A DNA stretch of 64,000 nt from the NCBI GenBank assembly GCA_001986395.2, contig MQVO02000005.1, positions 186,001 through 250,000 of the forward strand. Direction: 5' to 3'. Both the position numbers and the translations under genes were made by a program. The notes beneath the pieces are model-generated. The model had not been told where the DNA came from. It ran no database searches and saw only the letters and a program-made list of their open reading frames with translations. This document shows positions 21,761-57,339 of this stretch, piece by piece (within the stretch, counting starts at the first letter, position 1; every line of letters begins with the position of its first letter). The DNA is from Irpex lacteus. Its lineage: Eukaryota > Basidiomycota > Agaricomycetes > Polyporales > Irpicaceae.

Positions 21761-21854
21761 CGCCTATCGCTACTCTTTGCCAACCACCGCATCCATACAC
21801 ATCCCCATCTGTGCACCACCACTGCCACTGCTTCCATCCAGCCCTGCCAATTCC

Positions 21855-30908: not shown

Positions 30909-30932
30909 CTTGTGGGAGTGTGGCCATCAAGT
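30908..30932 (-). repeat. Stem-loop at the 3' terminus of the element
   Basis: On the plus strand ACTTGTGG pairs with CCATCAAGT, an 8-bp stem with one bulged T, around a loop of about 8 nt. It lies between the host junction and the inner inverted repeat, at the end nearest the Rep-helicase stop. Helitron-type elements carry a 3' terminal hairpin in this position. Confidence 0.5.
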
Positions 30933-30940
30933 GGCAGGTA

Positions 30941-30953
30941 ACGATTCCTGAGT
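30941..30953 (+). repeat. Left (subterminal) copy of the 13-bp inverted repeat
   Basis: ACGATTCCTGAGT, the exact reverse complement of 57217-57229. Followed by an 11-nt T run and a TCAGCTGA palindrome. It lies 33 bp inside the left host junction and 34 bp from the Rep-helicase stop codon. Confidence 0.75.
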
Positions 30954-30986
30954 TTTTTTTTTCAGCTGAGCTTGCTAATAATCTCT

Positions 30987-33900
30987 TCAATTATCCGTCA
31001 TAAGATTGTAAATAACCACTACTGCTTTTCTTCGACTAGGAGCAGTATGTAGTAGTTGTGGATGTATGTTATTTATATGTCCCTCATATCTTGAGTTTGA
31101 TCCTGTTTGAATTCCATCATTATACCAAACTCCACCGTCTGCATCAATAATTCGACAAGTAAAGTGAAATTCACCAAAATAAATAATACCTGACAGTCGG
31201 TAACTGTCATCATTGAACTGAATTTGTCTTTCAAAACGTACTTGTAGCTTCTCATCTAGTCGAATGTGTATAAAAGGAATCTTTGTAGTGTATCGATATT
31301 GGTATTCAGTTTGTGTCTTTTGGCACTGAGGACATTTAGTCTTGGTTTTTGTATTAAAAAATACATGCATCCAATTTGATATACATTGTCCGACTGGAGA
31401 TCCAGCTCTTATTGTTTTTTTTTTCCATACTTCATTGGTACAGTGTAGTAACATAAACTGATTTAATGCTTTAGACTTAACCTCCTGCATACAATTTTTA
31501 CAGTAAAGCACTTTCTTGCCTGCTGCTCTGCTTGAGTTTAACATGTAATAGCACAGCTCATGTATATCTGCTCCTTCTCGAGATAATGGAAATTGGCTAG
31601 GATAGTCATCACATAGTAATTGACGAATCGCTTGTCTTTTCATTTCCAACGTGGTATTATCTTCTGATCTGAACATCAAATTAAAACTTTGAAGATATTT
31701 GTCTCCAAGTTCTATGATATTTATCCAATCAAATGGTGTAGTACGTAGTATGTTCAGTAAGATAGCAAATAAGCTATCATACGCACAGCTGAATGTTTCT
31801 GCATGCCATATAAAGCCCATTGGACTGTTATCTATTGAGGCACCAATTTCTATTGCAGCACGTTTATTTGGCCTATTCAATGCTTCGCTGTGTTTCCGTT
31901 TACGCTGGACTTGTTTTGATAAAGAACTTAGTTCTGGTGATTGTTCCTGTTCTTTAGTAGCAATATAGTTCAGTTTATTTGGTACATTATGAATCTCATT
32001 TTTTTTACGCTTATTTGATGGCGACCTTTTAGGAGCGATACTCGTTTGTGTTAGACTTGTTGTTCCTTTTGCTGTTATGTACTTGGGAAGTGATTTGTTT
32101 GACGTGTTTAAGTGAAGCTCTTTTGTGTCAGAAGCCTTAGTTTTGTCAGATTTGTCTGCTTTCTTGTGATCTATAATTTCCCACTGTGCCTCATCAAATG
32201 GATCTGACAATATGTATGGTTCTTTGGAGTTCCATTTTAATGGAGCTGGCATATACTGTGGCACATATAGAGCTCCAGCTTTTTGACGATATGAAGATAT
32301 CAAATGAGATCTAGTTTGACCTTTTACTCCTGTTGGCAATGTATTGTGGTAGCGTAATCTTGTGATCTCATCTAGGAGTTCCAATTCACGAAATTCTTGT
32401 CGCAAATAACCATCTAGACCACCAGTCATATATTTTGTTGAAAAATCACGTATGATTAAAGTACCTTCATATGTAGATCCTCTAGATAAGCAAGTATAAA
32501 TGGCTTGATGATTTCTGCAGTTTTGTATATCTACAACATTGTTTTGCCTTGTTCTTCCTTGTGAAGCAAAATCTGTCATGCCAAAATTTAGTAATATAGG
32601 CACTTGTGTGCGTGTTATATCTATTGTTCGTCCATCGTGAATCTTACAAGTTATATTTATCGGCTCTGCAACAACTGGAACAACATTTTCTGGCAGACCA
32701 GGAAGTTGTATTGGTGTGGGATTTGCAGTTAGCTTCACAAATACCACTTCCAACATATTGTGATTCATATCCAAAGGTCTACTTTTCCAACCTACTACTA
32801 TACCTTCTGCTCCATTAGTCACACTACATTCTGTTGCTTTGTTTTTTTTTATCATAACTGGCATTCCGACGCAAAGAGCTATTTTTCCTGGATGATGACT
32901 TGTGCTACTTGGAGGTAAGTTCCACAAGTATTGCTGATCATTGATTGTTAAAATATTATTCTTTCGCAGTGGATCAATGTGTTTTATCTCTGTCTTCATT
33001 TTTTGTTTGCGTTCTTTTGTATTTGTGTGAAGTCTATCCAAGGAATAAAAGTGATCCAGATTTTGTTTGAATTCTTTGACAAAACGAATGCTTCCCAGAT
33101 CATTCAATTTATCTCGTATGGCATTGTATGTGCATACAACAGATACATTACGAAATCTGTTGTCTGACCATTTAGGGCTATTATCAGACCTGCCGGCAAT
33201 TCGTTTACGTAGAAAGGCTATATCTTCAGTTGTGCATGACTTGTAACGTAAATTCTCAAGTAAAGTGCGGAACTTAGCATCATCGGTTGATTGAGATCGT
33301 TGTCTCATATTTTGACGTAAAATGACTACAGTTGTGAATTGGTGCCATAATGCTTTTCCTATTGAGGCTTCCTGTTCAATGTATGATGACGTGTGGTGAA
33401 TAACTGATTCTACTTGAGCAGCGTATAAAGATTTGCCTGAGCCTGCTGGAGGGAGTTGTGCAAAGTCTCCAGCTAAAATCATATTTTTACTGCCAAATGG
33501 ATTCATTTCATTTCCAGTGGCTTTGCACATTTTTTTACATATATTATATAAGCTTCGACAGTCCAGCATAGATACTTCATCTAGGAAAATATAGTCAACA
33601 TTTTGTAAGTTTGCTCTCACTTCAGTCAGATTTGTTATTTTTTCTTCACTTTCTTTATTAAATGTATTCATGCCTAGGAATGAATGATATGTTGATCCTC
33701 CTATAAGCGATGCAGCAGCACCGGTAGGTGCAATGCAAGTAAATCTGTACTCTTCTTTGCGATCCGTAAAGAATTGTATAAGAGCCTTTATAACTTGGGA
33801 TTTACCAGTCCCAGCCATGCCTCCAAGATACATTTTCAGCTGTGTTGGATTCTTTAAAGTAGCATGATTTGCTACAATTTTGAAAGCTCTTGATTGTTCA

Positions 33901-36900
33901 TCATTCAGGGTAAAGTTTTTGCTTATAACTTCGATCATATCTCGATCTTCCTTTAACTTTGGTTTAAACATTTTGCTAAAATAAGATTCATCCACTATCT
34001 TGACTGTTCCTTCACTGTCCTCTTCATTTGTATTTGTGTTATCTGATGAGATGTTAGTTGTTTTCTTAAATCTGCTTTGTAATATTGAGTCTCTCTTTTT
34101 GATTAATGTTTCATGCCAATGCTTTGCATCCTCGTTAGTGTCTATGCTATCTGGTAAAGTATCCATCAGTTCTGAATCAGTATTAGCAAAATTGTCAAGT
34201 AATCCATTTTCTTCTGCTAATGCCTCTGTTTCTGCCATTCGCTGTAAACTCAACAATGCAGAATTGGAATAATTATAAGATTCTGTATCATCAGGGTCAA
34301 AATTAGTGAATTCATTATAATCATTATTATCGTGCCTATCAAGCCATTCAGTCGTTTGACTATCAATGTTAAATGGCCATTGGGAGTGATCAACATTGTG
34401 TAATCGTCTTTGTGCAGCATAATCATCTCGAGCATCGTTGCATTCGTATCTCAAATTAAAATATTTCATAATATTGCGTTCTTGTTGTGAAAAACTATAT
34501 CTCTCAAATTCCTCGTTCCACGATTGATCATTTGATTTGAGCTCGAGACCTGTTCGCCATGGGCGAAAAAATGTTAACATTGTCATACAGTATTCTTCCC
34601 GGTTTCCCCTATCATGTCTGGGTAATGTACCTCCTATAAAGTCTGGAACTTTTGCTTTAGATTTAGGTAGCATGTGTACTTTGTACGTTTGATACTGTGG
34701 ATGCTCAGGTAAGAAATCGTCATATTTATAATATTCAGCCTGTTCGACTGAACGTGAAAGTGATTGCATACTAATCTGGCTGTTATTGTTTGCTGTATGG
34801 TGACTCGAATCAAAGCTGACTTCATTGTCGCTATTGGTATCTTCACTGGAGTCATCTTCACTGTCGGTATTGGCATCACTTGTGTCTTCACTAGAGTCAT
34901 CCTCACTTTCTTCACTTTCTTCACTGGAGTCATCCTCACTTTCACTACTTGCTTTTTTATAGGATATGTATTCAGCTTTATTGTATTTACTTTCATGTTC
35001 AAACCTACTACTTTGAATATTGTCACTATCGTCATCTATTATCTGTTTATTAATGTGAGGTGTTATGTTTTTGTCTGGGAGCTCACTCCAGTGGGCAACA
35101 CCCATTTGGTTCAAATAAATATCTAACGCTTTCAATTCATCGCTGTTATCTAATGTTTCCCAAGTAGTATCCCCGGCCTCCCACTGAATCAAAAACATCA
35201 ATGTTTTGCCACTTGTGCGTGGTTTATTTTTCCATTTGTGATCTATGATATGATCAACTCGCCATAGCTTATTATTTGATTTTCTATTAGACTTTGTATT
35301 ACTTGCAACTTTGCTGCACTTAGTTTTGTTAGACATACTGATCCATTCGTAGAGATTTACTTGTTCATATTTTTTGGGTCGATACACATAATCCAATACA
35401 GGTGATATGCCAACAAATCCATTTTTGTTTTTAGCTATTATCACCTTTTCATCATGAGTCAATTCGGTATCTTTGTCAAATGTAGTGTCACGATTGGCAG
35501 AAGTCATGACAGAATCCCACTCATTTTTAACTGCATCCACATAGGGCCTCCAGTAGAATCGTTGAAACAAATGACTAGTGTAATGATCTGCGTGCTTTAG
35601 CAGATACATTGATGCCATTGGCGAACCTATTTCACTTTTGGCAGTTAAAGCGTTGACAATCTTTGTTATCACTGAGCGTCCTTTTTTCAATCGATCGTCT
35701 CCTTGTACCGGTTCTTCCATATTTCGGGTAAAGATAGTTTTGACTGCATCAAAAATGACATGTGTTTTTAGTGGTGATTTAGTAATATAATCTGTTACAT
35801 ACGCTATGACTGATTTTATAGCAGTACCAGATTGTAGACTTGTTACGTCTGTATTACATCTAAGCAAATATGTTAGATCAGGACTAAATGTGTTCAACCA
35901 TGCTTCTCCTTTTTTCAATATAAGTGCGCCAGATTCAATATCCACTGTTGTCTCTACATGAACCTCTCGTGGAAATCGAGCTTTACAGACTTTGTATTTG
36001 TTACTGAGACAGCGATCTTTATGGCATTCATGTACGTTTGAGAGATACAACAATTCGTCAGTTTCTATATCCTTGTTTTTAATTGTCTGTATCGCTTTCA
36101 AGCATGTCTCACATTTTTTGCACTCCAATTTACAGAAGTTGTCCAGTTCTGTAGGCAATCTTAATGTCGGAGGTGTGTTGGCTGAGTTTGACTTGTATTT
36201 TTTGGTAACATGCATATCGATTTCTGTCATGGTACTTGTTACAAATTCCCCTTGATGGCAACTTTCTAAATATTGCACCATTCTTTTTTGAAATTCTGAC
36301 TCGTTATTCATTATCTTTTCCCTCAATTCTTGAGGGGTCAAGCTGTTTTTTATCCACACTAACATGTGCATATGCAAAGTTAATCTACCTTGTTGTTCTA
36401 CAGTTCCGTAATATCCTGAAGTAGGTCCATACAGACCGTTAGCATTGCTGTTATAGCCCAGTACATGTTTTATAAACATCTCTGTCATAAATTTGAAGAA
36501 TCTTGCTCCTGCTACCGGATTGTTAGCAATCAATCTAGTTCGCTCATCGGCATTAGGTATATTTGGCCAGAATCTTTGTTTAGTATCAGCATAATACAAA
36601 CATATTGGGTGGCTAACATCTGCTGGCGCAAATGTAATGAACCATGTGGGTGCACCTAAATAAGACGTCAAAGACCATATTTCATTACGCATTTTTCTGC
36701 GATTAGTTACAGAGCCGTCTACCTTTGTGGCTACGTAATCAATATCTGTTAATAAACGGAAACAGTTTCTCTCTTCTTCAGTTTCAGGTACGACCGGTCC
36801 TTCACTAGTTCTCTTTATTAAGTCATCCAATGTAGTAGCGTGGACATTCATTATTCTATTTACAACTTCTGAGAAGTTTTTCTTTTTTGTCAACAGAAAA

Positions 36901-39245
36901 CCTCCATCGTAACTATTCTTTATCTGTTGATGATTGAATGCTATTAACGAGAAGAATTGATCTGTTTGGAAACGTTTGTCATGATACATTAGCCAGTTCT
37001 TCTTCCTCAATGCATCAGAGATAGATATTTCAATATTCTCGTTGCCAAGCCCGCCATAACCATAAGGAAACAGCCAAGGGAACATAGACGGATATAGTTG
37101 AGGGTTGTCCCATATACTTTCCGGTTTGCTTTTTTTGCCAATTCCTAATGCTTTATTTCCATTCTCAAAGTAACGCAGTGCTTTAAAATATATATGTTTC
37201 GGATCTCCATCCCATAATTCAGTCAATTGCTCACTAGTGAGACCATGTACCACAAACGGTGCATCACCTTGGACTGTACCTTGTTCCTCTTCCTTATCGT
37301 TTACTGCTGTACTTTCTAGATTGTTGTTATGTGTTGACGGATGAAAATCCACTGCTATTGGAGGAGTATCCTCAGGATACTCCTTCAGATTTTCGTATGA
37401 GATTTGCAGGTCCCGATAGTCTGCATGATTTAGTTTTAACCACTCAAGAGCTGCCGCTACTCTATTCTTTCTAATTAGCAAAGGAAGTCGACGGAAATCT
37501 GCTGGCACCGGAGCATTGGGTGATATAAATATTATTGCCAGTACGCTTTGAAGATCAGATTGGGGAGGAGGTAGTACGTCATATATTTTACGTGTAGGTA
37601 TAGCGTTGCATACTACATTACATCGCATTTTATACAAATGTGAAACATGAACTCTAACGACTGCCTCACTTGCTACTATCCTTGCAATCATTTTTTTCTC
37701 CATCCAAGATAAATCCTGAAGCTCAGGAGGCACATCTCCCAGCCATAGACCATTTGCTAAAGCAAACTTAGGTAGACTGTTACGTTTTAAACTTAAACTA
37801 CAATCTGTACAAACTTTGTTTCCTCCAGCAGTCAACACCGGACCTATCAGCGGTTCAACTGGGTCAGAGATACTGGTACGCATCTTTCTAGTTACATTTG
37901 GACGGTGTAAAATAGAAAGTTTCTCTTGTATATCAGACAAAGGCGACAAGAGCGTTGTCAAGGTTGAACATCCACAAACAGCACAAGCCTCCTCCTGCAA
38001 ATTATCTGTATTACATTCACTTATGAAACTGTTGATTATACTGCTACGCTCATTGTTTGTCATAGGTTTTGGTGGAAAAGAACTTTGTTCACGCACTACA
38101 CGTTTATGTATTTGGTTTTTCCTTCTTGTTACATTTTTCTTTTCCTCTGACATTCTTTTACGATATGAAGCAACTCGTTGCTGAGTTGGAACAGGAGCTC
38201 GATGTGGGACCCGTCTGAATTCGGAGAAGTATGATGAACATTGAGTACACGTATGGTTTAATAACTTGTCGATAAAAACAGATTTCGTACGTTCACATTG
38301 CTTATAAGAAACACCATGAGCATTACAGATCAGTTGTAGATTTCGATGCGACACCTTGTACACTAACTTACTTAGAGGTACGCAAGCATAAATCGATTGC
38401 TTATCTTGCGTACAACCGGTCTCCTGATACGAGGTAAACCGATATAGTCCGCAAGGTATATGCACATTAGTCCAGGTCTTCAGTTCTTCATCAGTCCATA
38501 GGATATCTGACAACCCTCCCCCTACATGTCTAGGCTTAACTTTGAGTACTCGTACGTAGAGTAAGTGATGTTGACTCTTGACATAGTTATCTGTATAAAG
38601 ACCATAGAATATTTGTGTGAGATGGGTCAGACGTCTGCGGTGTTTGAACTCTGATCTTCTCACGTAATGTAGTTCTGAGTACAACTTGCACATCTGAACG
38701 GAATACTTTACTTTGAAATGGTGAGACTGATAGTAACGGTACAGAAACCACAACACGTTAGACAGAGGTAGTTTATCGTAATTGAAGTAATATTTAAGCA
38801 CAATGTTTTGGGGGCTGGTCATAGGCCAAACCAGGTCGTCAAGCGACGCGAGACTTTCTGGGATGGTGCTCGCCCGTACCATGCCACTAAGTGGCACCGG
38901 ATTATGTACAGCAGAAACTCCGGCCGGTTTCTGGTTTGCAGCAATTGTATTAAGATCAGTCGAGTCGAGAGACGTAGGTGTATCCCCTACACAATGATTT
39001 AGACTGTAGGATACCTTGTATTCACATGCATTGAACGAATCAACGCAACAAATAAAGTACAGCACTAGTAAGACAATATGATAGTACATACGTACATTTA
39101 ACATCCACTTGGACTTCATCGGTGACTGCGGTAAGAGTGACTTGCTCAGTGTTGATCGAGGAGAGGACGTAGACAACGCAGAACGGGTGCAAGGTAGGCA
39201 GGCTGAAAATGACGACCACTCCGCCTTATATGCAGAACTTGCCAC
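30987..39245 (-). CDS. Helitron Rep-helicase with chromodomain-like insert and C-terminal cysteine-protease domain
   Basis: Single exon, 2,752 codons. In order: Zn-type Cys clusters and a long N-terminal region (about 330-640); the Helitron Rep domain with HUH motif LTLHMHML (about 955) and two-Tyr motif AYVTDYITKS (about 1,149); a chromodomain-like segment with LMFLIQWEAGDTTWETLDN (about 1,325-1,390); an acidic Ser/Glu/Asp run (about 1,430-1,475); a PIF1-type SF1 helicase with GGMAGTGKSQ (about 1,807), YIFLDEVSML, AGDFAQLPPAG, FASQGRTR and TCLSRGSTYEG; and a USP/C19-like cysteine-protease domain with Cys box ETFSCAYDSLFAI (about 2,484), zinc-type CxxC pairs, and His box GEFHFTCRIIDADGGVWYND (about 2,690). 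Role: nicking, strand transfer and unwinding during transposition. Much more AT-rich than all neighbours. The true start may be Met at 39119, because a TATA-like box lies inside the longer frame. No internal stop. Confidence 0.9.
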   Translation of the reverse strand: MASSAYKAEWSSFSACLPCTRSALSTSSPRSTLSKSLLPQSPMKSKWMLNVRMYYHIVLLVLYFICCVDSFNACEYKVSYSLNHCVGDTPTSLDSTDLNTIAANQKPAGVSAVHNPVPLSGMVRASTIPESLASLDDLVWPMTSPQNIVLKYYFNYDKLPLSNVLWFLYRYYQSHHFKVKYSVQMCKLYSELHYVRRSEFKHRRRLTHLTQIFYGLYTDNYVKSQHHLLYVRVLKVKPRHVGGGLSDILWTDEELKTWTNVHIPCGLYRFTSYQETGCTQDKQSIYACVPLSKLVYKVSHRNLQLICNAHGVSYKQCERTKSVFIDKLLNHTCTQCSSYFSEFRRVPHRAPVPTQQRVASYRKRMSEEKKNVTRRKNQIHKRVVREQSSFPPKPMTNNERSSIINSFISECNTDNLQEEACAVCGCSTLTTLLSPLSDIQEKLSILHRPNVTRKMRTSISDPVEPLIGPVLTAGGNKVCTDCSLSLKRNSLPKFALANGLWLGDVPPELQDLSWMEKKMIARIVASEAVVRVHVSHLYKMRCNVVCNAIPTRKIYDVLPPPQSDLQSVLAIIFISPNAPVPADFRRLPLLIRKNRVAAALEWLKLNHADYRDLQISYENLKEYPEDTPPIAVDFHPSTHNNNLESTAVNDKEEEQGTVQGDAPFVVHGLTSEQLTELWDGDPKHIYFKALRYFENGNKALGIGKKSKPESIWDNPQLYPSMFPWLFPYGYGGLGNENIEISISDALRKKNWLMYHDKRFQTDQFFSLIAFNHQQIKNSYDGGFLLTKKKNFSEVVNRIMNVHATTLDDLIKRTSEGPVVPETEEERNCFRLLTDIDYVATKVDGSVTNRRKMRNEIWSLTSYLGAPTWFITFAPADVSHPICLYYADTKQRFWPNIPNADERTRLIANNPVAGARFFKFMTEMFIKHVLGYNSNANGLYGPTSGYYGTVEQQGRLTLHMHMLVWIKNSLTPQELREKIMNNESEFQKRMVQYLESCHQGEFVTSTMTEIDMHVTKKYKSNSANTPPTLRLPTELDNFCKLECKKCETCLKAIQTIKNKDIETDELLYLSNVHECHKDRCLSNKYKVCKARFPREVHVETTVDIESGALILKKGEAWLNTFSPDLTYLLRCNTDVTSLQSGTAIKSVIAYVTDYITKSPLKTHVIFDAVKTIFTRNMEEPVQGDDRLKKGRSVITKIVNALTAKSEIGSPMASMYLLKHADHYTSHLFQRFYWRPYVDAVKNEWDSVMTSANRDTTFDKDTELTHDEKVIIAKNKNGFVGISPVLDYVYRPKKYEQVNLYEWISMSNKTKCSKVASNTKSNRKSNNKLWRVDHIIDHKWKNKPRTSGKTLMFLIQWEAGDTTWETLDNSDELKALDIYLNQMGVAHWSELPDKNITPHINKQIIDDDSDNIQSSRFEHESKYNKAEYISYKKASSESEDDSSEESEESEDDSSEDTSDANTDSEDDSSEDTNSDNEVSFDSSHHTANNNSQISMQSLSRSVEQAEYYKYDDFLPEHPQYQTYKVHMLPKSKAKVPDFIGGTLPRHDRGNREEYCMTMLTFFRPWRTGLELKSNDQSWNEEFERYSFSQQERNIMKYFNLRYECNDARDDYAAQRRLHNVDHSQWPFNIDSQTTEWLDRHDNNDYNEFTNFDPDDTESYNYSNSALLSLQRMAETEALAEENGLLDNFANTDSELMDTLPDSIDTNEDAKHWHETLIKKRDSILQSRFKKTTNISSDNTNTNEEDSEGTVKIVDESYFSKMFKPKLKEDRDMIEVISKNFTLNDEQSRAFKIVANHATLKNPTQLKMYLGGMAGTGKSQVIKALIQFFTDRKEEYRFTCIAPTGAAASLIGGSTYHSFLGMNTFNKESEEKITNLTEVRANLQNVDYIFLDEVSMLDCRSLYNICKKMCKATGNEMNPFGSKNMILAGDFAQLPPAGSGKSLYAAQVESVIHHTSSYIEQEASIGKALWHQFTTVVILRQNMRQRSQSTDDAKFRTLLENLRYKSCTTEDIAFLRKRIAGRSDNSPKWSDNRFRNVSVVCTYNAIRDKLNDLGSIRFVKEFKQNLDHFYSLDRLHTNTKERKQKMKTEIKHIDPLRKNNILTINDQQYLWNLPPSSTSHHPGKIALCVGMPVMIKKNKATECSVTNGAEGIVVGWKSRPLDMNHNMLEVVFVKLTANPTPIQLPGLPENVVPVVAEPINITCKIHDGRTIDITRTQVPILLNFGMTDFASQGRTRQNNVVDIQNCRNHQAIYTCLSRGSTYEGTLIIRDFSTKYMTGGLDGYLRQEFRELELLDEITRLRYHNTLPTGVKGQTRSHLISSYRQKAGALYVPQYMPAPLKWNSKEPYILSDPFDEAQWEIIDHKKADKSDKTKASDTKELHLNTSNKSLPKYITAKGTTSLTQTSIAPKRSPSNKRKKNEIHNVPNKLNYIATKEQEQSPELSSLSKQVQRKRKHSEALNRPNKRAAIEIGASIDNSPMGFIWHAETFSCAYDSLFAILLNILRTTPFDWINIIELGDKYLQSFNLMFRSEDNTTLEMKRQAIRQLLCDDYPSQFPLSREGADIHELCYYMLNSSRAAGKKVLYCKNCMQEVKSKALNQFMLLHCTNEVWKKKTIRAGSPVGQCISNWMHVFFNTKTKTKCPQCQKTQTEYQYRYTTKIPFIHIRLDEKLQVRFERQIQFNDDSYRLSGIIYFGEFHFTCRIIDADGGVWYNDGIQTGSNSRYEGHINNIHPQLLHTAPSRRKAVVVIYNLMTDN
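39225..39234 (-). promoter_or_regulatory. TATA-like box for the Rep-helicase
   Basis: Minus strand GCATATAAGG. It lies about 105 bp upstream of the ATG at 39119, a normal distance, but overlaps codons 4-7 of the longest frame. This favours 39119 as the real start. The compositional change from GC-rich to AT-rich also falls just after it. Confidence 0.4.
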
Positions 39246-39373
39246 TCCGCGTCATGATTAAGTAATCAAACCGTATGACATCATATTTTCGGTATTTTAT
39301 CAAGCGGGACTCTACTGGTACACTTTCAAAGATAACAGAACATTCAGGACACTAAGATGCATGCGCTACGTTT

Positions 39374-40636
39374 TTAATAAGGATGGAAATAACCGTCATG
39401 TTTGTTCCAGTACGCGCGCCACATCCAGCCTACCAACTCTTTCACCACTCTCTGCGTGTCCCTGAAGACAACATGAGTGGGCAAACTTAAGGACAGATAG
39501 AAGTACTCACATATCATTCCCGGTAAGCGTACGTTCATTTCCATCAAAGAGACCCAAAGATTCTTGACGGAGACAGACTCTGGCAAAGTCGTCCTTGAGA
39601 CGGTTGGTCGCAACGATCAAGGGAAATACGCCAGGTTCGTCGTCCTCTACTCGATAGTGAACTCGGTGGAAGTCGTGGGGAAATGTTGCGATAGACCAGG
39701 TTGTGAGTGACACAGGATCAACTCGGTCTACCGCCTCCATGTCGAAGTTGATGCGAGGCAGCGGAATCGCCCAAGTGTGAGCGTCCAGCAAACATCTAAC
39801 TTGGCCGTTGTCGTAGTACTGGTTGTCCGCACTGGCCAACCGTTTGAACTCAAAGCCCCTGGAACGATATTTACGCACCGCCTTCCAGAGGGCCTCGGTT
39901 GAGCTCTTGAGGAGAAGGGAAGAAGACGCGCGAAGAGTGGCCTTGGGGTACAGGCAGTATGCGTAATTATACGTGATTACGTTCATCACGCAGGCTACAT
40001 GCATAAGTATTAGCAGAAAATGACAGTATAAACTAAGACGAGCGTACTGGAATGAAAGTTCAGAATGGCCGTCATTGGACTCCCGTCGACGACGACGAGC
40101 TGGACCTTCCTTACTTCTCCCTCCACGGTGCGCAGAAAGTTCAACACTCCTACCACTCCCCGCACATAGCTAGTCTCCTCGGCCCTGTTATCGTCCAAAG
40201 CCTGGAGAGCTTCCAGGTAAGTCAAAGGCTGGCCGTTAGGCCGCTCCGCAGGACAGAAGGTGTACGCGTTGGCCAACAACCAATCGCCGACATCGTGTTT
40301 CGCATCGTTAGCCGCATAGATGTCCAAGTCCGCCTCCGGATAAAAGACGCGGCAAAATAATTGGAGGGCGAAAGATCCTGAGACAAGAGCGCCGGTGCGA
40401 GATTGCATGACACGGAATGAGAAGGGATCGTTGAAGAAATGCTTCAGACGACGATAGATGCTGAAAGTATGATTAATGGCGCGGGGCATGGTCCTACGCA
40501 GAGCTTTATTGACCTTGGCCAACCGACAGATATCCGCAGCGCAAAGGTAAGGAAGGATTTGGTCGAGAACGTCGTTGAGAATGACGGAATTGCAGAGGAC
40601 AGGCTCGGTGACAACGGGCTTAGAGAAGGCGACCAT
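39374..40636 (-). CDS. F-box-like / nucleotidyltransferase-fold-like protein
   Basis: Three exons join in frame: 40636-~40061, ~40007-39513 and ~39463-39374 (ending WNKHDGYFHPY). Residues 17-55 (ILNDVLDQILPYL, then ICRLAKVNKALRR) look like a degenerate F-box. Residues 85-107 (VSGSFALQLFCRVFYPEADL, then DIY) fit the nucleotidyltransferase pattern GS-x(14)-D-x-D, with G87, S88, D103 and D105. The protein has no signal peptide or membrane segment. Similar F-box-plus-GS...DLD proteins are, from memory, numerous in agaricomycetes; their activity is unknown. First cargo gene after the Rep-helicase, same strand, spaced 128 bp. GC content is like the host chromosome, unlike the Rep-helicase. Confidence 0.75.
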
Positions 40637-44487: not shown

Positions 44488-45740
44488 ATGGCACTTGAAG
44501 TGTTGTACTCTGAGAAAGACAAGTATGGTCAGTATTTCAGACATGCGGGACTGGCTTGCCGTACTGAGTCGACTACTATAGCAAACATACTGCAAGATCA
44601 TCTTGAAGAGGCGAATAGTTCCAACGACAGCGATAAACAGCTGCATTTATTTCAACAGGTGAGATATAGGGATCCCGGCGAGGGTGAGGATGCTTACACC
44701 GAGCGATGCTTATAGCCAGAAAGGCTGACGATAAGTACTCAAATATGGACTCGATCCACGGGTCAAAAAGACATCGTATACCCACCGGCGGGAGGGCGTG
44801 GCGAAGATCGCGAAGAGGTCGTATTCAGGTTACGAGGTTACTTGTTACGCTCGCAACTGCCGCCTATCACTCGCAAGGACCAGTAAGCCTCTGACGGTGG
44901 AAATATGAATATACATCTCACTTTTTCCGTCTCAGGTTGACCAAAAACGCTATGAACGCGAAGCAGTCGTTGGTCCTCACCGGGCTAGGTCTGAAAGCGT
45001 TTGATAACAATGTCAGGGCCATTATGGAAATACACTCTCGATTTGCAAGCGACCTACCGGCCGACACATTACAACCTTGGTTTCCGGCAATGGACGACAA
45101 CGATATGTGCATTGAGCTGTCTAACCGTTACTTCACGCCAGAATATCTTGCCGGTGGCTATGAGAAACGAGAGTTAGATGATTTGGTCGACCCTCTGGGA
45201 CTGCTGAAGACACACGCTCACGGCGGCCGGCACACCGAAGACAACGAAGTGCTCTACTTCGAGCGTATCGTCGAGCAAGACAACCGGTGAGTCAGAACGG
45301 CTTCAAAAGCTCACAAGTAAACGTACTTAACGCCTATTCAGTTTCCGTTACATGTCGTGCAAACCATTGGCCATGAAGGCGGGTCTCCTAGTGGAAGTGC
45401 AGGCTTCGTTCTGCACCGTTCCCATCTCAAAGGGCCGCCACCTCATGTTAGCAAAGCTGCGTTCCGTTTGTGTGCTAGATAAGAGGGTATACCAAGTAAG
45501 TATTATCTACACGTCTTCAGTAATCCGTATTCAAACACATGTCAGGAACTCAACGATCGGGTTTTTGCGAGCATGAAGAAAGCAACCAAGGAAGAAGTTA
45601 GACGAGTCAAGCGCAAGGTTGGATATCAGTCAGAAGGACAGGACGGGGACAAGAGTCTGGAAGGTGATGCCGATCGTGCGATGAAGAAGTTGAGAATCGA
45701 CGATGGTAGGGAAGAAATGGCAACGGATAGCTTCCAATGA
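44488..45740 (+). CDS. Small unknown protein with HTEDNEVLYFERI motif
   Basis: Five exons, all GT-AG and in frame: 44488-44658 (MALEVLYSEKDKYGQYFRHA), 44716-44882, 44936-45286, 45342-45495 and 45546-45740 (ending MATDSFQ). Roughly 340 residues, soluble, acidic/basic tail (RRVKRKVGYQSEG). Recognisable blocks are DPLGLLKTHAHGGRHTEDNE and GLLVEVQASFCTVPISKGRH. I recall similar HTEDN / VE.Q.SF..IP proteins as a repeated family of unknown function in agaricomycetes. The frame is also open upstream to an ATG at 44383. Converges with the dioxygenase gene (91 bp between stops), part of the element's compact cargo. Confidence 0.7.
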
Positions 45741-45831
45741 GAACGGTAATGAGAACGGTAATAGTGTAAGAATGTATATTGTAACATAGCCGCGAACTTA
45801 ATAAGTCTATGAATCAAAAACGACTGCGCTA

Positions 45832-48800
45832 TCATACCGAAGGAGAGTCACGATAGTACCGAAGACCCCAAAGTCGACTGAACTTGCAAAGAGTATGTTC
45901 CAAGTCGATGTAACTCAATGGAACGTCCCAAGTGCCGTTTGCAGTTAACAAAAGGAGCACGTCTAGTCTGAAACTCTCTACCGCGTCCATTACTTCAGAA
46001 AGGGGAGCTCCCTCGTCTTCTTCGTCTTTTAAATATCCTAGGAGTCGAAGCCCTGATAACGCGCCCATATTCAGCATGCGTACGATGGACGCAATCTCGT
46101 CCAGCGAAGGTTCCTCCACCATTTTGTAACGAACCATGTCGGCGCATAATAGGTACGTGCTGAGTTTACCGCAGCCGGGTAACTTATGCTTTGCCTTGAT
46201 GCGCCGGAGCAGATTGTGCATGGCTGAAAAAGATAAAGGCCATTCTTCGTCGGTTGGCCACTCGCAATCGGCACTCACTGTCCAAAAGTGCGCGGCATGC
46301 TCGATGGTGCGGAGTTCAATGGTTTGGCCCAGAGCTGCGCGATTACAGAAGAAGTCGGCGTCGCGGTTGGGGAAATGAGCGTAAATGGCCTGAAGGTACG
46401 CGGTCCAATCACCGAAGGACTCGAATTTGGATTTCTTGAGGAACGGCGGGCGAAGAATGAACGCTTGAGAATTAAACAGAACGTTGCGGAACAGCAGAGC
46501 TGTGAAAAATCCCTGTCTTGTCCTCATGAAAGGGTAGTCAATGGTTTCCATCATCATCTTCCTAGAGGGGGCAGCTTCCCGGATGCAGATACGTGCATCA
46601 GGGTAGGATAATATCGCTTCCTGGACCGGACTAAGTATGTCGGTTGAGATAGGGTTCTTGAGTCGGTCCAGTGCAACTTCGGTGTCCTGGTATAAACGTA
46701 TGATGTTGCGACGACGATGATAAATACCGCAAGGCAAGGTCGGGTCGACAGCGGCACCTAAAGTATCAAATTAGTCGTAAGTTCTCGGCAAAGTGGGAGC
46801 TATAATTACCAGGAGTTGGCGTGTTGACTTGCAGATTATAGGCTTGAGTTAGAGACACGAAGGCAGCATACGTCTCCCCCAACGTATTGACGTTGTCAGC
46901 CACCTCGTCGTCGATAGAATTGATAAATTGCGCGAAGTCCGACATGGCAGTATCGTCATAGGGCCGATCTTTGTTCGCAGTGTTGGTGTGGTAGTCGCGA
47001 GGAGGGTTCTTGAACAAGTATCGCGGTAGTTCTCGGTGAATCTTCCAAACCGCATGCGTATAGAGGATACTCGTGTCGAACTTGGCTAGTAGTATGTCGA
47101 CCAACTGACAGCGTCCACGCGTGATGAAGCTGGAGGGGAGTCCAAGCCAGCGGCGGAGTATATGACCTAGATACGTTGCAACCGCCGGATATAGATCAGT
47201 GTCACTGGGTCGCTTCTTCCGACTCTTAGATCGCGCTTGAAAGGCCCAGTCGGGTTCTTCATAGCGGACGTTGAGTGTGTCTCCATGTATATAGGACGAG
47301 GAAGAGAAGGCAAGGTGTAACTTGATGACAAGCTTGACGTGAATATCGCGAAGTAACGTTTCAATCCAACCAGATGGGCTGCGAAGGAAAGTACCGCGTG
47401 CGAATATTTCGTCGCATAGCGTGCCTTCCATGTTATCGACTATGCGAGCGAGGCGATACTCGTGGAGTATCAGACGTTGCCTAAGGATATGAGTCCACGC
47501 AAGGTTGCCAGCTTCTTGGTGCTTGGCCAAGGAAAATGTGGCCATGTATCGCGACAACGCATCCGGCTGCATTCGCAAAGGATTGTCAACTGACTGGTAG
47601 TGGTCCAACATTTGCGTTGACTGGCAGATGGACTCAAAACCCGCGGTATGGATAAAGTTGACGCTGTAAACGAGGCGACGGATATCACGTCGGATGTGGT
47701 CGCTATCGATGTTATCGCAGAAGCCTTGCACTGATAAAAAACATTATTATACCGTCCATTGCAAGTAACGTAATACTAACTCACGTTGTTTCATCCTCTG
47801 CTCCCTTATCTTACGAGGCTCATGTTTGCGAGTTTTGCTCTGAGCCTGGGATTTCGCGTCATTTACCCCAGATTCGCCTGACGGGTAATGGTCAACATTG
47901 AATGCAGCCGTAAATTGATATAAAAGTACCTTGCATCTGATCTGCCTTGCTCGCAGTAGGCTCCGTCGTATGCAGCAGCAATGGTGACGACGACTCATGC
48001 GACGTTGGTGACGACGATCGCTGTATAGAAACGTGAGGATCTCTCATTAAACACCCTGAGCAAGACCCTACCTCTAGCAATGAAGTTGAAGCAACCTCCT
48101 GGCTCACGTGGGCAAGCGAAGACATATCCCCAAGAACGGTGGGCGAGTTACGTGCAGGACTTGCTCCGTGGTCCGGTGCTTCATTCAGTAAAGGATGGGG
48201 AATTGACGTTGCTTGATGGAATGACGGTTCCACTTCCATACGCTCCTCTCGCTCTGTCTCATATTCGTGCTCAAGCGGACCGAGATGTGGGCGTTGAACA
48301 AGTACAGAGGTGACGCGGGGAGACGACGAAGGAATTGCGTTCGCAGCTTTATCAAAGGTTAGTGTTTGGTATTAATTGGCGCGACGAGTTACTTACTGGA
48401 TGATGGACCGCCGACGATGTGTCCAGCTGACGACGGTCCGCCACTGCCGATATATTCTTCAACAAGATCCTCTTCATCTTCATTCGCAACTAACCATAAA
48501 TATGTACATGTAATTAGTGACGCTATTTGCCATAGACAATACGTTTTCTAGCACCTTGACGCGGGGAACGCCTGAATTTCTCCTGCAAAGATGTATCGTC
48601 CTCGTTTCCCGCCTTGCGCCTCTTCCGAAGGATCATGCGTTCGACACCAAGCGAAATTTCATGGTTACCTGACGCGTATTCATCATCAACAAGGATTGCG
48701 TGCACGCGTTTGCTGCGCTTGGATCGTTGTGCCAGCGGTTGGGACCTAGACTCGTCGTAGGGCGGTAACGGGTCAAGACGTTTAGTTGGTAATTTGAACG

Positions 48801-50794
48801 CTGCACCTTACCATTAGCAAACTGCCTTTCGCTTTTGATACATATGAAGTACTCACAGGAAGGTCGTATTTTTCTACTTCGCGTGCTGAGATACTCGGAG
48901 GCAAATGGGCTTGGCGCGACGCCAGGTATTGCGCCTGCCATACGACCGTACAGAGTGTCGAGTACGCTCACTTGCGCGTCGATATGTCGAGCTTCATAAC
49001 GAACATTCACCTCTGGAGCAGGTGCCATGGGCCACGGCTCGAGAGAAGTTTCCTCTCCTTGTTCATTATAGAACTTGAACGCACGAAGGTATTCGGTCTT
49101 GTTTATTTCCACCCTCAGACGAGGTGGGAGTTGCTCCATGACGTCGTAGGTCCACAATAATAAGCCGCGTGCCAGGAAGTTAACCAGTCCAGCGTCATCC
49201 ATAACAGAAGTACCGTCCTGGGCTACGGTAGTATGCGCCGTATAATAGCCATCGGTAGGACGTTTATGAGGGCCGCCAGTGGTGTGCGCAGTGAGGTAAA
49301 AAGGGAGGGCCCCCTTGTCACCGGGCATCATGCTAAAGCTATGAGTGGCTTTGCCGAGGGCCATAGCTTTCGGCGGGTAACTGATCAAAGTCGCGCGACA
49401 AGCCCAGCGAGGTATGGGATTAGAGTCGGGAGTAAGGGCTCGCGTGCTGCCGTGTCGCAATAAACCGGTGAAAAAGATTTGTTTACTACAGACGGAATAA
49501 CGAATAAGAAGAATTATATTATATAAATAATTTCCACCACCTACAAAGGGTCCAGCACGGTATAAAATCCAATGCCCAAAAAATGCATGCGACCCGGTTC
49601 CCAGCCATTATCAGTTGGTAAATCCGATACGACGGTTGCGCAAGATAGATGGGTCGGGCTGTCCCCGTCGTCTGTGTGACAATCGCCGAATCGACCGTTC
49701 GTCGCACCAAGCGACTGCTCTGTACAGGATATAAGAATAATGAGGCATATACCAGCCAAGAAGCGTACCTTCACCCACTCGCTGTGGCTCCGATACGTTG
49801 AATTGGGTAGACGACCACATGTAATTGCTGTAAGTGCCGATACGGGGTGTATTGACCAATTCCGCATAGTTTTCCAGAATTACTTGAAGAGATTCAGGCG
49901 CCATTCTGGTCCACATAGTCATCGCAGCGTCGGCATTGGACTACAGAAAACGGTAAGCACAAAAAGAAAAGTATATGTGCACAATAGACTTACCCTAACG
50001 ACTTCCTTGACCGCAAGTTGGACGGCATCCAACTTTCCATCTTTGATCTTGAACGCAGCAGGCGGACCTGACATATTCATCGGACGTTCGAGCATGTTTG
50101 ACAGCCCGTAGCAACGATTGCCGTCTGCTACCTCATTTGCTCGGTCTTGCTCTTCAAACCAGACACGGCGATTGTCTCGTGTAGCTCGGGGACCCAACAG
50201 CGTGTCGCGAGCAGCAGTCAAAGCCTCACGCTTGCGGACCATATCATCGTCTTGGTCGCTGAGAGTGAGAGAGAGAAAGAGAAAATCGAAGGTACGTTAG
50301 ATTGATATTGTGAAAATACAAGTTATTCACTTAGTAGCAACAAAGACTTGTAAGGCATCGTCCTCCGGGTCGCCCCCCTTCTTCACATCCCTCGCGAACA
50401 CTGCGTCGCCTTCATTCAAAGCAAACAACCCGCCGAGGCCTGGCGAATGTATCATCAGAATGAATATGTTAATATGCGAAATGAAATATGACGTACTGTT
50501 CGTTCCGCTTGGGGGATTAATCATGCCACCAGGCAGCTCGACAGTAGATGCAAGATCCTTCGCCCTAGCGCTACCAGCTGGGGAAGTGTCGACTAGGTAA
50601 ACATAGGCTTTCCCGGTATCAGCGGTGCGAGCTGGGTTGCGCAACTGGGGGTGGACGCCATCGGTGTAGATGTACACGGTAGGAAGAACCAAGTCACGCC
50701 GTTCCTCTTCCACCACTGTCAAGCCCCGAAGAACCCGAGGGTCGGTGGTGGTAACATCGTAAATCAGACGTTCTTCCAAAGGTTCAGCGGACAT
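45832..50794 (-). CDS. Large protein with N-terminal TET/JBP-like 2OG-Fe(II) dioxygenase domain
   Basis: Roughly 1,400 residues, at least a dozen exons. Start 50794 (MSAEPLEERLIYDVTTTDPR). The dioxygenase core is in the first third: NMLERPMNMSGPPAAFKI, RIGTYSNYMWSSTQFNVSEP, iron ligands H-x-D in GRFGDCHTDDGDSPTHLSC (about 49,658-49,690), SDLP, EPGRMHFLGIGFYTVLDP, then across an intron FKQIFFTGLLRHGSTRAL with the distal His (about 49,447-49,458) and Arg in ACRATLISYPPKAM, a likely 2-oxoglutarate binder. This order matches the TET/JBP-like family, which in mushrooms oxidises methylated bases or is of unknown substrate. The middle is basic/acidic linker (SRSQPLAQRSKRSKR, NEDEEDLVEEY). The C-terminal ~620 residues (47,731-45,832) are helical and unrecognised. 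Every splice keeps frame, which argues that this is one gene and not two. Confidence 0.7.
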
Positions 50795-53414: not shown

Positions 53415-53711
53415 AGCTCACAAGAAGGCTCAGGAGGTACGCGTACTCTCAATAAAGCCTGTAAGGACAGGATAGGCAGGACATCGCTGAAAGCAGACAA
53501 GAGGTCAGTAGCGGCTCATAATCACAACACGTACCGTTCTAACTGTGCACTCAAAAAGCAGTAGTTACTGTGGCGACGCGACGATCGCAATCGGCATAAA
53601 CAGACAAGACATTTCCATTCGTAAAGGAAAACCCGTCCACCCAGTACCGTAAGTCTCAGTCTCGCATAAAGTCTACAACTGCTCATTCACGGATAGAAGC
53701 TTGAAGACGCA

Positions 53712-56700
53712 ATGTCGAACGATAAGGCGAACTCCGCGGATATCACAAAGACTAGTAACGTCCCTAGTGTGGCGCACGTCTTCTATACGCTTCGTGATGG
53801 ATATTTCGTTTCGCCCAACGCCAACTATCTTCCAAATGTGCCGCCCCTGGCGGACGTCATGCAAAGTATCTTCGAAGGCCTACATCCCAGATACGCCTTC
53901 GACGACTATTACTATCTCGCCCTTGTACCACAACAAATTCGATATGATATACCGATGTTCGAATGCCTGTCACCTCTGTCATGCCGTTTAGAGTCTGTCT
54001 CGGAACGCGGTGCCTCTGGGTATCGTCTCAGTAAACACCTGTGCTCGCAATGGATGGCCCTAGAACAGATAACTTCCCGACTACAGAAGAAACTGCTCAA
54101 GCGAACTGCCGGTACATTTCTTGAAACGCGTGTCCCGCCTTACCCTAGTACAATGGGTTATTCGAACCTATGGACGACACGACCTGAAGCTCTGCGCGCG
54201 ATTCGACTAGGACGAACGGCATTCACCCTTCGCTTCGCCTTTCTATCGTACCTTGTCATGCGCGAAGCCGACAAGAACCGTCGAACTTGGAAAGATCTCG
54301 CAGCAGACAGCGAAGACCCGGTGCCTCTGTCAATATGCAACAGCTTCGCAGCTTCCTGGATCGGCGATTTCACGGTGCCTCGTATTGGAGCCTTCGTGGA
54401 AACTTGTTGTCAAGAGTTCCCTTACGCCGGGCGCGCATGGCACGAAGAAATCACGTCCTTCTTAGCATTTCATATCCCTCTCTGGTTTGCTTATCGAAAT
54501 GACCCCAGGCCCGGTCGCGAGATTAGCAAGGTTACAGAAGGTTACCGTAAACTCTATCTACCCAAGGATCTGACCGTCTATGTTCTCAAAAAGGCGACCG
54601 AGGACGCATATCAAACCGACAACGACATCAGCATTGCAAACCAGTATGCCGCCGGCTCTGACAACCCGGCACACATGATGAAGGACGACTACTACGGCTA
54701 CTACGTTCAAGGAAGTACGCCGTCCTCCAGGGTCCGCGTATTACGACGAGTATGCGGTACTTCTGTTTACGAGGTCTCCTTAGTTGGCCACACTGCCTAT
54801 GTAACTGTCGTCGACGAGTACTATCACACTCACGCGCACCTCGAAAATCGAGCACCCGAGTTATACTACCGCCAGAGAAGAGAAGATACATACGACACTT
54901 TCGTAGCTCGTCAGAAGGACGACAACATGAAACTTGCGGCTGCAGAGTCAGCTTCTCAACGAGAGAGGAGGCAGGCGCGCGAATCAGCTAACTTGGGTCA
55001 GCCCGTACCCGACAAGTACGGACCCACCGTGTTCGCGTGGATCGGGGAACGACCGAATGTCTGCAGAATGCGAGTGAAGCCCGAGGAAGTACCTGCATTA
55101 TGGGAACGCACTACTCCCGACAGACGCACCTACAACTCCTTTCGAAATGAGTATGACGTCGACGACGTAACATTCTACGACATGCAGCGCGAGCAAGGGG
55201 CAAGTCAGGATCTTGAGCTCGTCAACACACCCGACGACGCGACTAGCTTTAGCGCACCTGTACCTCGCGTGCATTGGGCATTAGCCTCGACGGGTGCTAA
55301 CGACGGCCGTTTGATCACGACGGAAAAGATGCCAAAGATCGCCATGAAAGACGATACCGCTCCTTCAAATGCTGCTGGAGAACGAACGATGGCCGAGCTG
55401 GCTGATACTTTGCTGGAGATGGATGGAGTGGATCTTATAAGCGGAGAAGGAGTGTATGCGCCCGACACGGATTCAATTAGAAGTATCGTCTTCGAACGCT
55501 TTGGATATCGACCTCCCGCAACGGCGTGGCACTCGACCACAAGAGAAGGACAGCAATGGGTAGACGAGAAGAAGATTACAAAGCTATATAGAACTCTGGG
55601 TAACTGGGATCGGGAAGATAACATGGCCAACGAAGAATTGCAACCAGAGGAGTTCAAGGCGCTGGCAGACTTCGTTGTCCACGTCAAGAACGGGAAGGTA
55701 CCACCAGAGGATCTAACAGACCTGGCAACGGTCTCCCGACAGATCAATGCTCGACCTGAATATGACGATCTACGCGTAAAGCAATACTTCACCAAAGAAA
55801 CTGCAGTCGGCGGCAAGGAAGTATCTACGGTCTGGTACATGCTCATGACTATCAGGAGGGAGCCTATCATCACATCAACATCCTGTCGTATCCTCACCGA
55901 CATGGCGACAAATGTCCTGCACTTGCAGCGTGCAGATTTCGGAGTCACGGCAGACTCCATACTACGCTCGTTTCTTCGTCGAGGAATACGGGTACGACTG
56001 CTGCGGCGGGTGAACCCCGACATCAGGCTTCGACAGCCCCGTGAATGGACTTCAACCCTTGGAGACAAACCGTTAGGCATCGGGATTCAGCCGTACAACG
56101 TAGAGCTTACCTCCCAGGACTACAAGGTGTACATGAAGACGCGCAACGATCTGCTCAACGGACCAGTCGGCCGCGCAGCCCTGCTACAAGGAGGGATCGT
56201 CTGGCGACTGGCGTTGCAAACATGCACCCTAGAGGACACGGCAGAGGGTGCGGACACAGACAACGAGGCTGCTCACACGCGCATAGCTTTGCAACGATTG
56301 GGAGGTGAGACTTACGCTGAAACTGTCCTGAAACAGCAAGACATGTACATCATCGTCGGTGTCTATCGAGTGATTCGAGGTGAGTGCGCATAACATTGAA
56401 AATGATGATGCGCGCGACATATTGAACGGGGATACCGACTTCACGCAGAACCTGTGCATGCGAAGGGCCATGCCACGAAGGCAAACGAACGCTCCGCTAA
56501 GCCAAAGGACCGGTCCGCGAATGCGTCGTTAACATCGTGGTGGCCGACAGACGAGACGTGGGCGACTTCAGGCTACGGTACTGGATACTGGTCCCATGCG
56601 GCGGAAATATGGTTTCAACGCCGTCTACGAATGCTGAGAGAGGGAAAGGCGAGGGCAATGACTCAGAACGAATGGAGGAAGTCTCTGCGTCACACGTTGT

Positions 56701-56762
56701 CGGACTCTCATGCATTCATACAGGGAATAGAAAGGCTGTCGACTACCAGATTATTGCATTGA
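53712..56762 (+). CDS. Large unknown protein (about 1,000 residues), agaricomycete-type family
   Basis: First exon 53712-~56382 is open for about 890 codons, very long for this intron-rich cargo. One GT-AG intron (~56383-56447) then joins in frame to VHAKGHATKANERSAKPKDR and ends IERLSTTRLLH with TGA at 56760-56762. Blocks: SVAHVFYTLRDGYFVSPN at the N-terminus; LFLSYLVMREADKNRRTW-like helical part (actual reading AFLSYLVMREADKN); a Lys/Arg/Gln coiled segment after residue 400; PTVFAWIGERPNVCRMRVKP then RRTYNSFRNEYDVDD (about 437-485). The combination TVF.W...R.R and RRY.SF..E(W/Y)D is, from memory, typical of a multi-copy mushroom family with no known function. No signal peptide, membrane segment or catalytic motif seen. 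Last gene before the element's right end. Confidence 0.75.
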
Positions 56763-57199
56763 TTGTATAGTACAGGTGTTACATGTATTGTTAATACGAG
56801 CAAATTGAGAGGCAAAGCATGAGCCAGACACCAAACGAGCATCAGAGCGAACAAACTGAGCGCTAATATTCATCGGAGTTTTAACATACGAGGTCGACAT
56901 CCAAACGCATCCACCACGTAGACTGAGTAAAATTGAGAAGTAGCACATAAAAATACATGGGTTGAAAGAGGAAGACGGTAGGAAAGTACAACTAAAAATA
57001 CAGAGCAAAATATTGCGGGACAAGAAAGATATTGAGAGGGCAGACCTTAGGATCGATGGGCGCTAAAAGTAAAGATTCGATACAAACGTTGAAAGAGTTA
57101 GTAAGCGGAGATAGAAATAAAGGTAGACCCACAGAATTCCCACGACTTCACAGCGCGGCGCGTTACTGACAAAAAGTGAGCGAAGCCGCCTGAACTGGA
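56763..57199. other. Subterminal non-coding DNA of the element
   Basis: A-rich plus strand with no gene, between the last cargo gene and the right terminal hairpin. Confidence 0.5.
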
Positions 57200-57229
57200 A
57201 CGATTCACTTCGTTACACTCAGGAATCGT
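57200..57229. repeat. Right terminus: 13-bp inverted repeat folded into a hairpin
   Basis: ACTCAGGAATCGT at 57217-57229 is the exact complement of the left copy and directly abuts resumed host sequence. Its GAATCGT (57223-57229) can also pair with ACGATTC at 57200-57206, giving a 7-bp stem with a 16-nt loop at this terminus. Confidence 0.7.
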
Positions 57230-57339
57230 AATTGCCTATCGCTACTCTCTGCCAACCACCCACTCCCACTCTGCATCCAATACCCATCCCCATCTGTGCG
57301 CCACCACTGCCACTGCTTCCATCCAGCCCTGCCAATTCC

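Follow-up and report, generated by a model that had tools for sequence, protein, structure and literature searches.

The window analyzed here is a 64,000-nucleotide stretch of the Irpex lacteus genome (positions 186,001-250,000 of contig C185; the genome comprises 44.3 Mb in 317 contigs), and it contains a block of 26,322 bp that splits one unit of a tandem gene array and carries a Rep/helicase gene together with six further gene blocks. We conclude with considerable confidence that this block is a giant rolling-circle transposon of the Helitron2 group that carries a long-standing gene set of its own. Gene models were produced by a custom finder from the sequence alone, and their exon limits are uncertain. 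The features are listed below with their window coordinates and strand (ORF, open reading frame).

30909..57230, minus strand: whole element, 26,322 bp, with its 5' end at 57,230 and its 3' end at 30,909; empty site in unit 1 of the array; both ends common to three other complete elements.
57218..57230, minus strand: 5' terminus TACGATTCCTGAG; first arm of the asymmetric inverted repeat; starts the hairpin ACGATTC...GAATCGT.
30909..30952, minus strand: 3' terminus CTCAGGAATCGTT...CTCCCACAAG; holds the other inverted-repeat arm at 30,941-30,952, 32 bp inside the end.
30987..39251, minus strand: gene A, the Rep/helicase ORF of 2,754 codons; DUF6570, Helitron_like_N and PIF1 (Pfam E values of 1e-37, 6e-35 and 3e-25).
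35103..35270, minus strand: within gene A, a stretch resembling a chromodomain (Pfam Chromo, E 0.0016, 18.8 bits versus a cut-off of 25.1).
39510..40636, minus strand: gene B2; weak F-box-like N terminus (Pfam E 0.001, below the cut-off); in four of four complete elements.
41454..43660, minus strand: gene B1; multi-exon, with a low-complexity charged N terminus; in four of four.
44488..45740, plus strand: gene C; five-exon model; in four of four.
45832..47730, minus strand: gene D; two main exons, with resemblance to the 5-hmdU DNA kinase helical domain (HMUDK_hel) in the C-terminal half; 21 loci.
48858..50794, minus strand: gene E; six main exons, ~550 amino acids; HxDxxD...EPGRxH...HGxT...R pattern; 19 loci.
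53697..56393, plus strand: gene F; 898-codon ORF, transcribed away from E; in three of four.

A 26-kb block interrupts a tandem gene array

Self-comparison of the window revealed that the block at 30,909-57,230 splits unit 2 of a tandem array whose units encode proteins with TPR and CHAT domains (Pfam), and that unit 1 is continuous at the corresponding place. Once the two flanks of the block are joined, unit 2 aligns with unit 1 through the junction (GGGATATAGCTCTCTGTA|ATTGCCTATCGC versus GGGATATAGCCCTCTATATCGCCTATCGC), and a length difference of one base falls exactly at the insertion point. The units are paralogous, with 86% identity between 21,784-26,016 and 57,266-61,497 and 77% between 20,881-21,756 and 30,068-30,905. 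The limits proposed for the block in an earlier note on this DNA are exact to the nucleotide, apart from the one-T ambiguity that is usual, and the alignment across the joined unit 2, suggested there to fix the junctions, supports the empty site, the flanks being contiguous in unit 1.

Termini, Rep/helicase and classification of the element

In the sense of the Rep/helicase ORF, the element begins with T|TACGATTCCTGAG and ends with CTCAGGAATCGTT...CTCCCACAAG|T. A 12-bp terminal inverted repeat (ACGATTCCTGAG) lies 1 bp inside the 5' end (57,218-57,229, plus strand) and 32 bp inside the 3' end (30,941-30,952); given these offsets, the repeat is asymmetric, as in Helitron2-group elements, which refines the inverted terminal repeat, itself real, that had been described earlier. 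A search allowing up to two mismatches found no further end of the ACGATTCCTGAG kind in the window. Across the genome, both ends recur at many places, and thus those of the window are not due to chance. The 5'-end search gave 25 matches, comprising 13 distinct 5' ends and 12 inner repeat arms at 3' ends, and a T preceded all 13 distinct 5' ends and followed all 14 distinct 3' ends. When folded with RNA parameters, the 5' end formed a clear stem and the fold at the 3' end was weak; some Fusarium Helitron2 members are likewise described as having no 3' hairpin (PMC5148889; this and all other published sources are cited here from part of their text). Short copies with both ends are also present, and four of the six such loci tried gave lengths (1,190-1,218 bp). 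Many short non-autonomous copies share, at 77-78%, a 77-bp stretch that lies between E and F in the window (52141-52217) and may be either a relic or an internal signal that is required.

The replicative transposase of the earlier note is the Rep/helicase ORF of 2,754 codons, with its Pfam matches to Helitron_like_N and PIF1. Reading by eye located an HUH motif (36,354-36,377), a two-tyrosine motif (35,778-35,804) and a Walker A motif (33,798-33,821) within it, and the frame is open over 2,568-2,754 codons in all four complete elements. Near its C terminus, a stretch reading CAYDSLFAILLN (31752-31787) resembles by eye the beginning of a deubiquitinase-like cysteine peptidase domain, and no Pfam peptidase match was obtained there.

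As in Helitron2 elements, a Rep with HUH and two tyrosines is fused to a PIF1-type helicase, and the terminal inverted repeat is asymmetric with an inset 3' arm. The strict Helitron2 target, between TTTT and T or C as given in the portion of PMC5148889 available, was not observed, the 5' flanks consisting of varied bases followed by a single T. Insertion at a TT dinucleotide, as in Helentrons, was found (13 of 13 and 14 of 14 flanks were T), and no Helentron endonuclease domain appeared among the Pfam matches (E up to 0.1) to the 2,754-codon ORF. The marks of canonical Helitron1 elements (5'-TC, 3'-CTRR and insertion at A/T) are absent, since the ends read TACG...CAAG and the flanks are T and T. 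Because the TT target fits Helentrons but their endonuclease is lacking, we assign the element to the Helitron2 group, broadly defined.

Three further complete elements share the ends and the gene order

Three further complete elements with both ends were identified in the genome, namely, C58 (39,922 bp), C18 (29,489 bp) and C308 (29,089 bp). Genes A, B1, B2, C, D and E are present in all four complete elements and F in three of them, in one order and one orientation: 5'-F(opposite strand)-E-D-C(opposite strand)-B1-B2-Rep/helicase-3'. The six conserved gene blocks other than A agree with the "at least five further genes" counted previously, and the recurrence of both ends, together with the gene order, in three other elements answers the objection, raised in the same note, that ends never found elsewhere would speak against a mobile unit. 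B1 is weakest in C308 (42% covered, 24% identity). In C58, gene C is in two parts ~14 kb apart, with ~14 kb of extra DNA between them that holds two long ORFs, one of them retrotransposon-like by eye. In C308, a second 5'-type end lies 544 bp from the first, and there are further internal ends.

The genome-wide Rep/helicase search scored the best 17 of 83 candidates; because only the best candidates were scored in the whole-genome searches, counts of loci are lower bounds. Co-location was tabulated from the coordinates of E, D, F and Rep/helicase, with neighboring pieces merged by hand and one weak E-like match (C21:8466) left out. At least 14 Rep/helicase loci were found, with pieces 49-86% identical to those of the window, except for one C-terminal piece at 36%. 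D lies upstream on the same strand at 12 of these 14 loci (at 5.6-20.5 kb), and both E and D do so at 10 of them, with E at a distance of 9.6-23.9 kb; F lies on the opposite strand at 6 of the 14. At 17 of the 21 D loci, E lies upstream of D at a distance of 1.1-4.4 kb. Given these associations and the few relatives that E and D have elsewhere (see below), the extra genes are not variable host cargo as in Starships. Thus, the Helitron-type multi-gene unit of the earlier note stands as a single mobile unit, on its recurring ends and gene order, but its likening to cargo-carrying Starships does not extend to the genes carried.

Short non-autonomous copies, or their ends, adjoin or separate D and E genes at C185:670503-671692, C313:310975-312192 and C147:189049. 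At C147, the gap between D and E is 4.4 kb with such an end between them, and in the near-identical pair of C316 it is 1.2 kb, which suggests another empty site.

Genes A, D, E and F are under purifying selection and modules have been exchanged

Estimates of dN/dS covered A, D, E and F, for which dS values above 2 are near saturation and several other comparisons were saturated at synonymous sites. The ratios were 0.14 for A, 0.13 for F and 0.09 for an E exon (all window versus C58), and 0.13 for a D exon (window versus C18). All four genes are under purifying selection.

Divergence differs strongly between parts of the same pair of elements. For the window versus C58, dS was 0.52 in A, 2.3-2.5 in E and F, and saturated in the D exon. 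For C18 versus C308, the last 7,721 bp are 96.3% identical (dS of 0.13 in A), and the DNA upstream of this shared part is almost unalignable, except for the 5' terminus and three short pieces. Likewise, a protein 99.7% identical to the E of C18 is 33% identical to the E of C308, and between C308 and the window, identity is 28-30% for E and D. In one of these pairs, similarity breaks off close to where the Rep/helicase frame starts; in the other, the break falls inside gene C. Since modules of differing age occur within one element pair, modules have been exchanged between elements.

Base composition also differs along the elements: the Rep/helicase part has 38-40% GC and a CpG observed/expected ratio of 0.65-0.72, and the cargo has 46-50% GC and a ratio of 0.78-1.16. 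In the window, the Rep/helicase (30987-39251) is AT-rich (38% GC, 31% GC at third codon positions) and the cargo (39300-57230), at 50%, is host-like and shows no CpG depletion; in C308, the two parts contrast less.

Gene E is a probable oxygenase

From its sequence, gene E is probably a 2-oxoglutarate (2OG)-Fe(II) oxygenase of TET/JBP-like type. Twelve diverged sequences share the pattern G-x-F...H-x-D-x-x-D...EPGR-x-H...F-F-x-G-L-x-x-H-G-x-T...W-x-x-R (one has ESGR), with H60, D62, D65, H115 and R134 invariant in all 12, and the motif order is that of 2OG-Fe(II) oxygenases. When the E profile was compared by hhalign with two TET-like ORFs of the same genome (L054 and L057), the alignment paired the HxD/HxR, HG[SN]T and R regions (P 0.001, probability 21%), and none of 120 column shuffles reached the real score (best, 24.8 versus 30.5). 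Several points count against this assignment. L054 and L057 themselves fall below the Pfam TET cut-off, and a probability of 21% is low; hhalign gave no match between E and L053, the sole TET ORF of the genome above that cut-off; E had no useful Pfam or PDB sequence match, with Pfam Tet_JBP matching 0 of 12 members; and the structure model was unusable (pLDDT 43.6), the alignment consisting partly of exon pieces.

Relatives of E were sought in two protein searches, the best 7,998 and 7,995 candidates of similar length being scored. The first search, among 5.8 billion proteins, gave at least four, and the second, with an eight-sequence alignment, gave at least four, two of them new; the named ones come from Irpex rosettiformis and Trametopsis cervina, both Irpicaceae (Polyporales), and one relative is 99.7% identical to the C18 copy. 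A protein search for D gave one relative. As the I. rosettiformis gene model P0006 fuses E and D, the E-D neighborhood exists in another species.

Gene D weakly resembles a domain of phage DNA kinases

We lean slightly toward a relationship between gene D and HMUDK, on the basis of sequence profiles and a structure model. The C-terminal half of D matches Pfam HMUDK_hel (PF18723) with an E value of 0.011 and 15.6 bits versus a cut-off of 25. The top viral Foldseek match of the D model (pLDDT 70.7) is a phage HMUDK_hel protein (probability 0.96, E 0.43, TM 0.44 of target), and the remaining 49 among the 50 matches listed (59 in total) have probabilities of at most 0.07. Compared by hhalign with the one clear HMUDK_hel gene of the same genome, D scored 25.4 versus 22.3 for the best shuffle (0 of 150 shuffles reaching the real score) over only 47 columns. 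Against the relationship stand the low hhalign probability of 4.6%, the lack of an HMUDK_hel match in Pfam for all 10 D copies from other loci (the C58, C18 and C58:2.12M copies were unscanned) and a fold search of PDB with D that gave no match. A PHROG of unknown function matches one D copy (E 0.0035), and the other six of the seven proteins have no PHROG match; apart from that copy, comparison of D, E and F with PHROGs and NCBIfam gave no useful match.

A clear HMUDK_hel gene (L060, C257:903959-904868; 244 bits) occurs at the sole place reported for this domain in the genome, and it is not near the Rep/helicase loci found. By eye, a chromodomain-like stretch follows its HMUDK_hel domain in the same frame.

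Thymidine-hypermodifying phages carry HMUDK-type proteins. D resembles the helical domain of these phage kinases, and here an oxygenase acting on DNA would supply the oxidized base. In such a scheme, E would oxidize DNA bases (5-methylcytosine or thymine), D would act on or bind the oxidized base, and the element might thereby counter host DNA methylation or mark its own DNA. The sequences thus suggest a Helitron that may modify its own DNA. We nevertheless regard as doubtful both a joint base-modification function of E and D and the fuller proposal that these are giant, phage-like modular Helitrons with a two-enzyme DNA hypermodification unit formed by E and D.

Interpretation and alternative explanations

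The termini, the empty site in the paralogous unit, the recurring ends and gene order and the open Rep/helicase frames were all observed directly, and they support the interpretation of the block as a giant Helitron2-group element with its own gene set. Some findings weigh against it. The empty site is in a paralogue 77-86% identical, within one strain, and there is no second copy with exactly the content of the window element. F is absent from C308 and also occurs at 13-14 of its 21 places away from these elements. Two of the 14 Rep/helicase loci (C155 and C185:663k) have neither D nor E upstream on their own strand, and those at C153 and C58:2.10M have D without E. Conversely, two of the 19 E loci (C308:1668k and C51) have no D within 7 kb, and 9 of the 21 D loci lack an accompanying Rep/helicase among the best 17 of 83 candidates, namely, C185:671k, C147, C316, C154, C58:265k, C49, C155:5, C51 and C296; of these, C49 and C316 reach a contig end on that side, and the 4 kb beside the C147 copy hold no Rep/helicase.

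An ordinary 8-kb Helitron might have captured neighboring host genes by end bypass, which would make the other 18 kb chance host cargo. Capture by Helitrons is known, the composition of the two parts (38% GC in the Rep/helicase, 50% in the cargo, like the host flanks) fits such an event, and F has paralogues away from the elements. We nonetheless consider it very unlikely, since the same genes stand in the same order in four complete elements, D accompanies 12 and D with E 10 of the 14 Rep/helicase loci down to protein identities of 28-30%, D, E and F are under purifying selection, and the two E searches and the D search gave few relatives elsewhere (at least four, at least four and one protein, respectively).

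Alternatively, two elements might be superimposed, some other kind of cargo element or integrated replicon having been hit repeatedly by a small Helitron and moved with it by accident. The differing histories and composition of Rep/helicase and cargo, the two successive 5' ends of C308 (544 bp apart) and the presence of D or E without Rep/helicase at 9 of the 21 D loci are in keeping with this. Yet in all four complete elements, cargo and Rep/helicase together are bounded by one Helitron 5' end and one Helitron 3' end, with the Rep/helicase on the 3' side in the same orientation; the scanned ORFs of the window include no other transposase; and no cargo-only element with different termini of its own was seen, the termini of the Rep-less loci being unmapped. 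Accidental co-movement is therefore highly improbable. Finally, a Helitron-derived DNA virus or plasmid-like replicon moving between cells with virion or spread genes is scarcely credible: the phage-like exchange of modules, the phage protein as nearest fold of D, the match of one D copy to a phage family of unknown function (E 0.0035) and the confinement of the genes largely to the elements would suit it, but Pfam gave no capsid, packaging ATPase or polymerase in 10 ORFs and 6 overlapping gene models, and six of the seven proteins lack a PHROG match.

For the giant Helitron2-group element that we favor, what holds for the family would predict that Rep nicks the target and the 5' terminus of the element, that the helicase peels off one strand with replication stopping at the 3' terminus, and that a circle is inserted between two Ts without target duplication. 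Modules could be exchanged if replication ran from the 5' end of one element to the 3' end of a second one nested in it or adjacent to it. Such a mechanism, starting at one end and stopping at another, agrees with the composite elements proposed for the Fusarium oxysporum Helitron2 elements (FoHeli), for which evidence of circles is also given (PMC5148889).

The host array

The array comprises tandem TPR and CHAT ORFs in three diverged units (14158-17343, 21945-25121 and 57430-60603), with Pfam matches to TPR in all three units and to CHAT, a caspase-like protease domain, in both units whose CHAT ORF was scanned. The element lies ~200 bp upstream of a TPR ORF. An rDNA array was ruled out as the identity of the tandem repeat, since no Rfam match exceeded the gathering threshold and the units consist of TPR-CHAT genes.

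Comparison with known systems

Starships are large multi-gene transposons of the Pezizomycotina with a tyrosine-recombinase captain and variable cargo. The window element is like them in size and multi-gene content, but it combines a Rep/helicase with a conserved gene set; a Starship was ruled out, as Pfam revealed no tyrosine-recombinase (DUF3435) captain in 10 ORFs and 6 gene models (some small ORFs were unscanned).

With FoHeli, the element shares the Rep/helicase, the asymmetric inverted repeat with its inset 3' arm and the 5' hairpin; unlike these elements of ~5-11 kb, it spans 26 kb and has six further gene blocks, other end sequences and a T/T target (PMC5148889). Fungal Helitrons are given as 5-14 kb (PMC5148889, PMC4289320, PMC6431247), and a 2019 review states 6-14 kb for fungi and up to 39 kb for maize, where gene fragments are carried, and describes the acquisition of full-length genes as exceptionally rare (PMC6431247). 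Maize Helitrons are thus similarly large and hold up to nine captured pieces, but these are fragments of host genes, whereas here whole genes are conserved with the element (PMC6431247). The HELPO1 Helitrons of Pleurotus ostreatus (listed at 6.6-13.7 kb) are, like ours, basidiomycete Helitrons with accompanying genes, here one to four, all of unknown origin; the available part of that report describes neither an ordered gene set across widely diverged copies nor module exchange (PMC4289320). A TET-bearing Helitron2 has been reported from Agaricus bisporus, likewise carrying a distant TET/JBP-like oxygenase gene; its PE-type enzyme has HxE, versus HxD in gene E (12 of 12), which has no Pfam TET match and is accompanied by D and the other blocks (PMC12730594). 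Within Polyporales, the same source, as far as available, reports only Kyakuja as TET-bearing (PMC12730594).

Consequently, the novelty claimed earlier for a gene-carrying Helitron in a basidiomycete must be narrowed: basidiomycete Helitrons with few genes and TET-bearing Helitron2 elements are already in print (PMC4289320, PMC12730594), but for the size, the conserved multi-gene set and the module exchange we found no earlier report. Nor did the literature collection searched yield a report of a giant multi-gene Helitron in basidiomycetes, preprints and most subscription papers being outside its coverage.

Implications

In these elements of 26-40 kb, whole genes have been kept with a Helitron, under purifying selection, until synonymous sites are near saturation and the proteins are ~30% identical. 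Fungi thus have, in Helitrons, a second kind of giant multi-gene element, one that works by a different mechanism. The natural recombinants allow tests of how Helitrons swap modules, and E and D offer a tractable pair for asking whether a transposon modifies its own DNA. Should that tentative proposal prove true, a rolling-circle transposon would chemically mark or protect its own DNA against host silencing, and its Rep/helicase and modification modules would re-assort as the modules of phages do.

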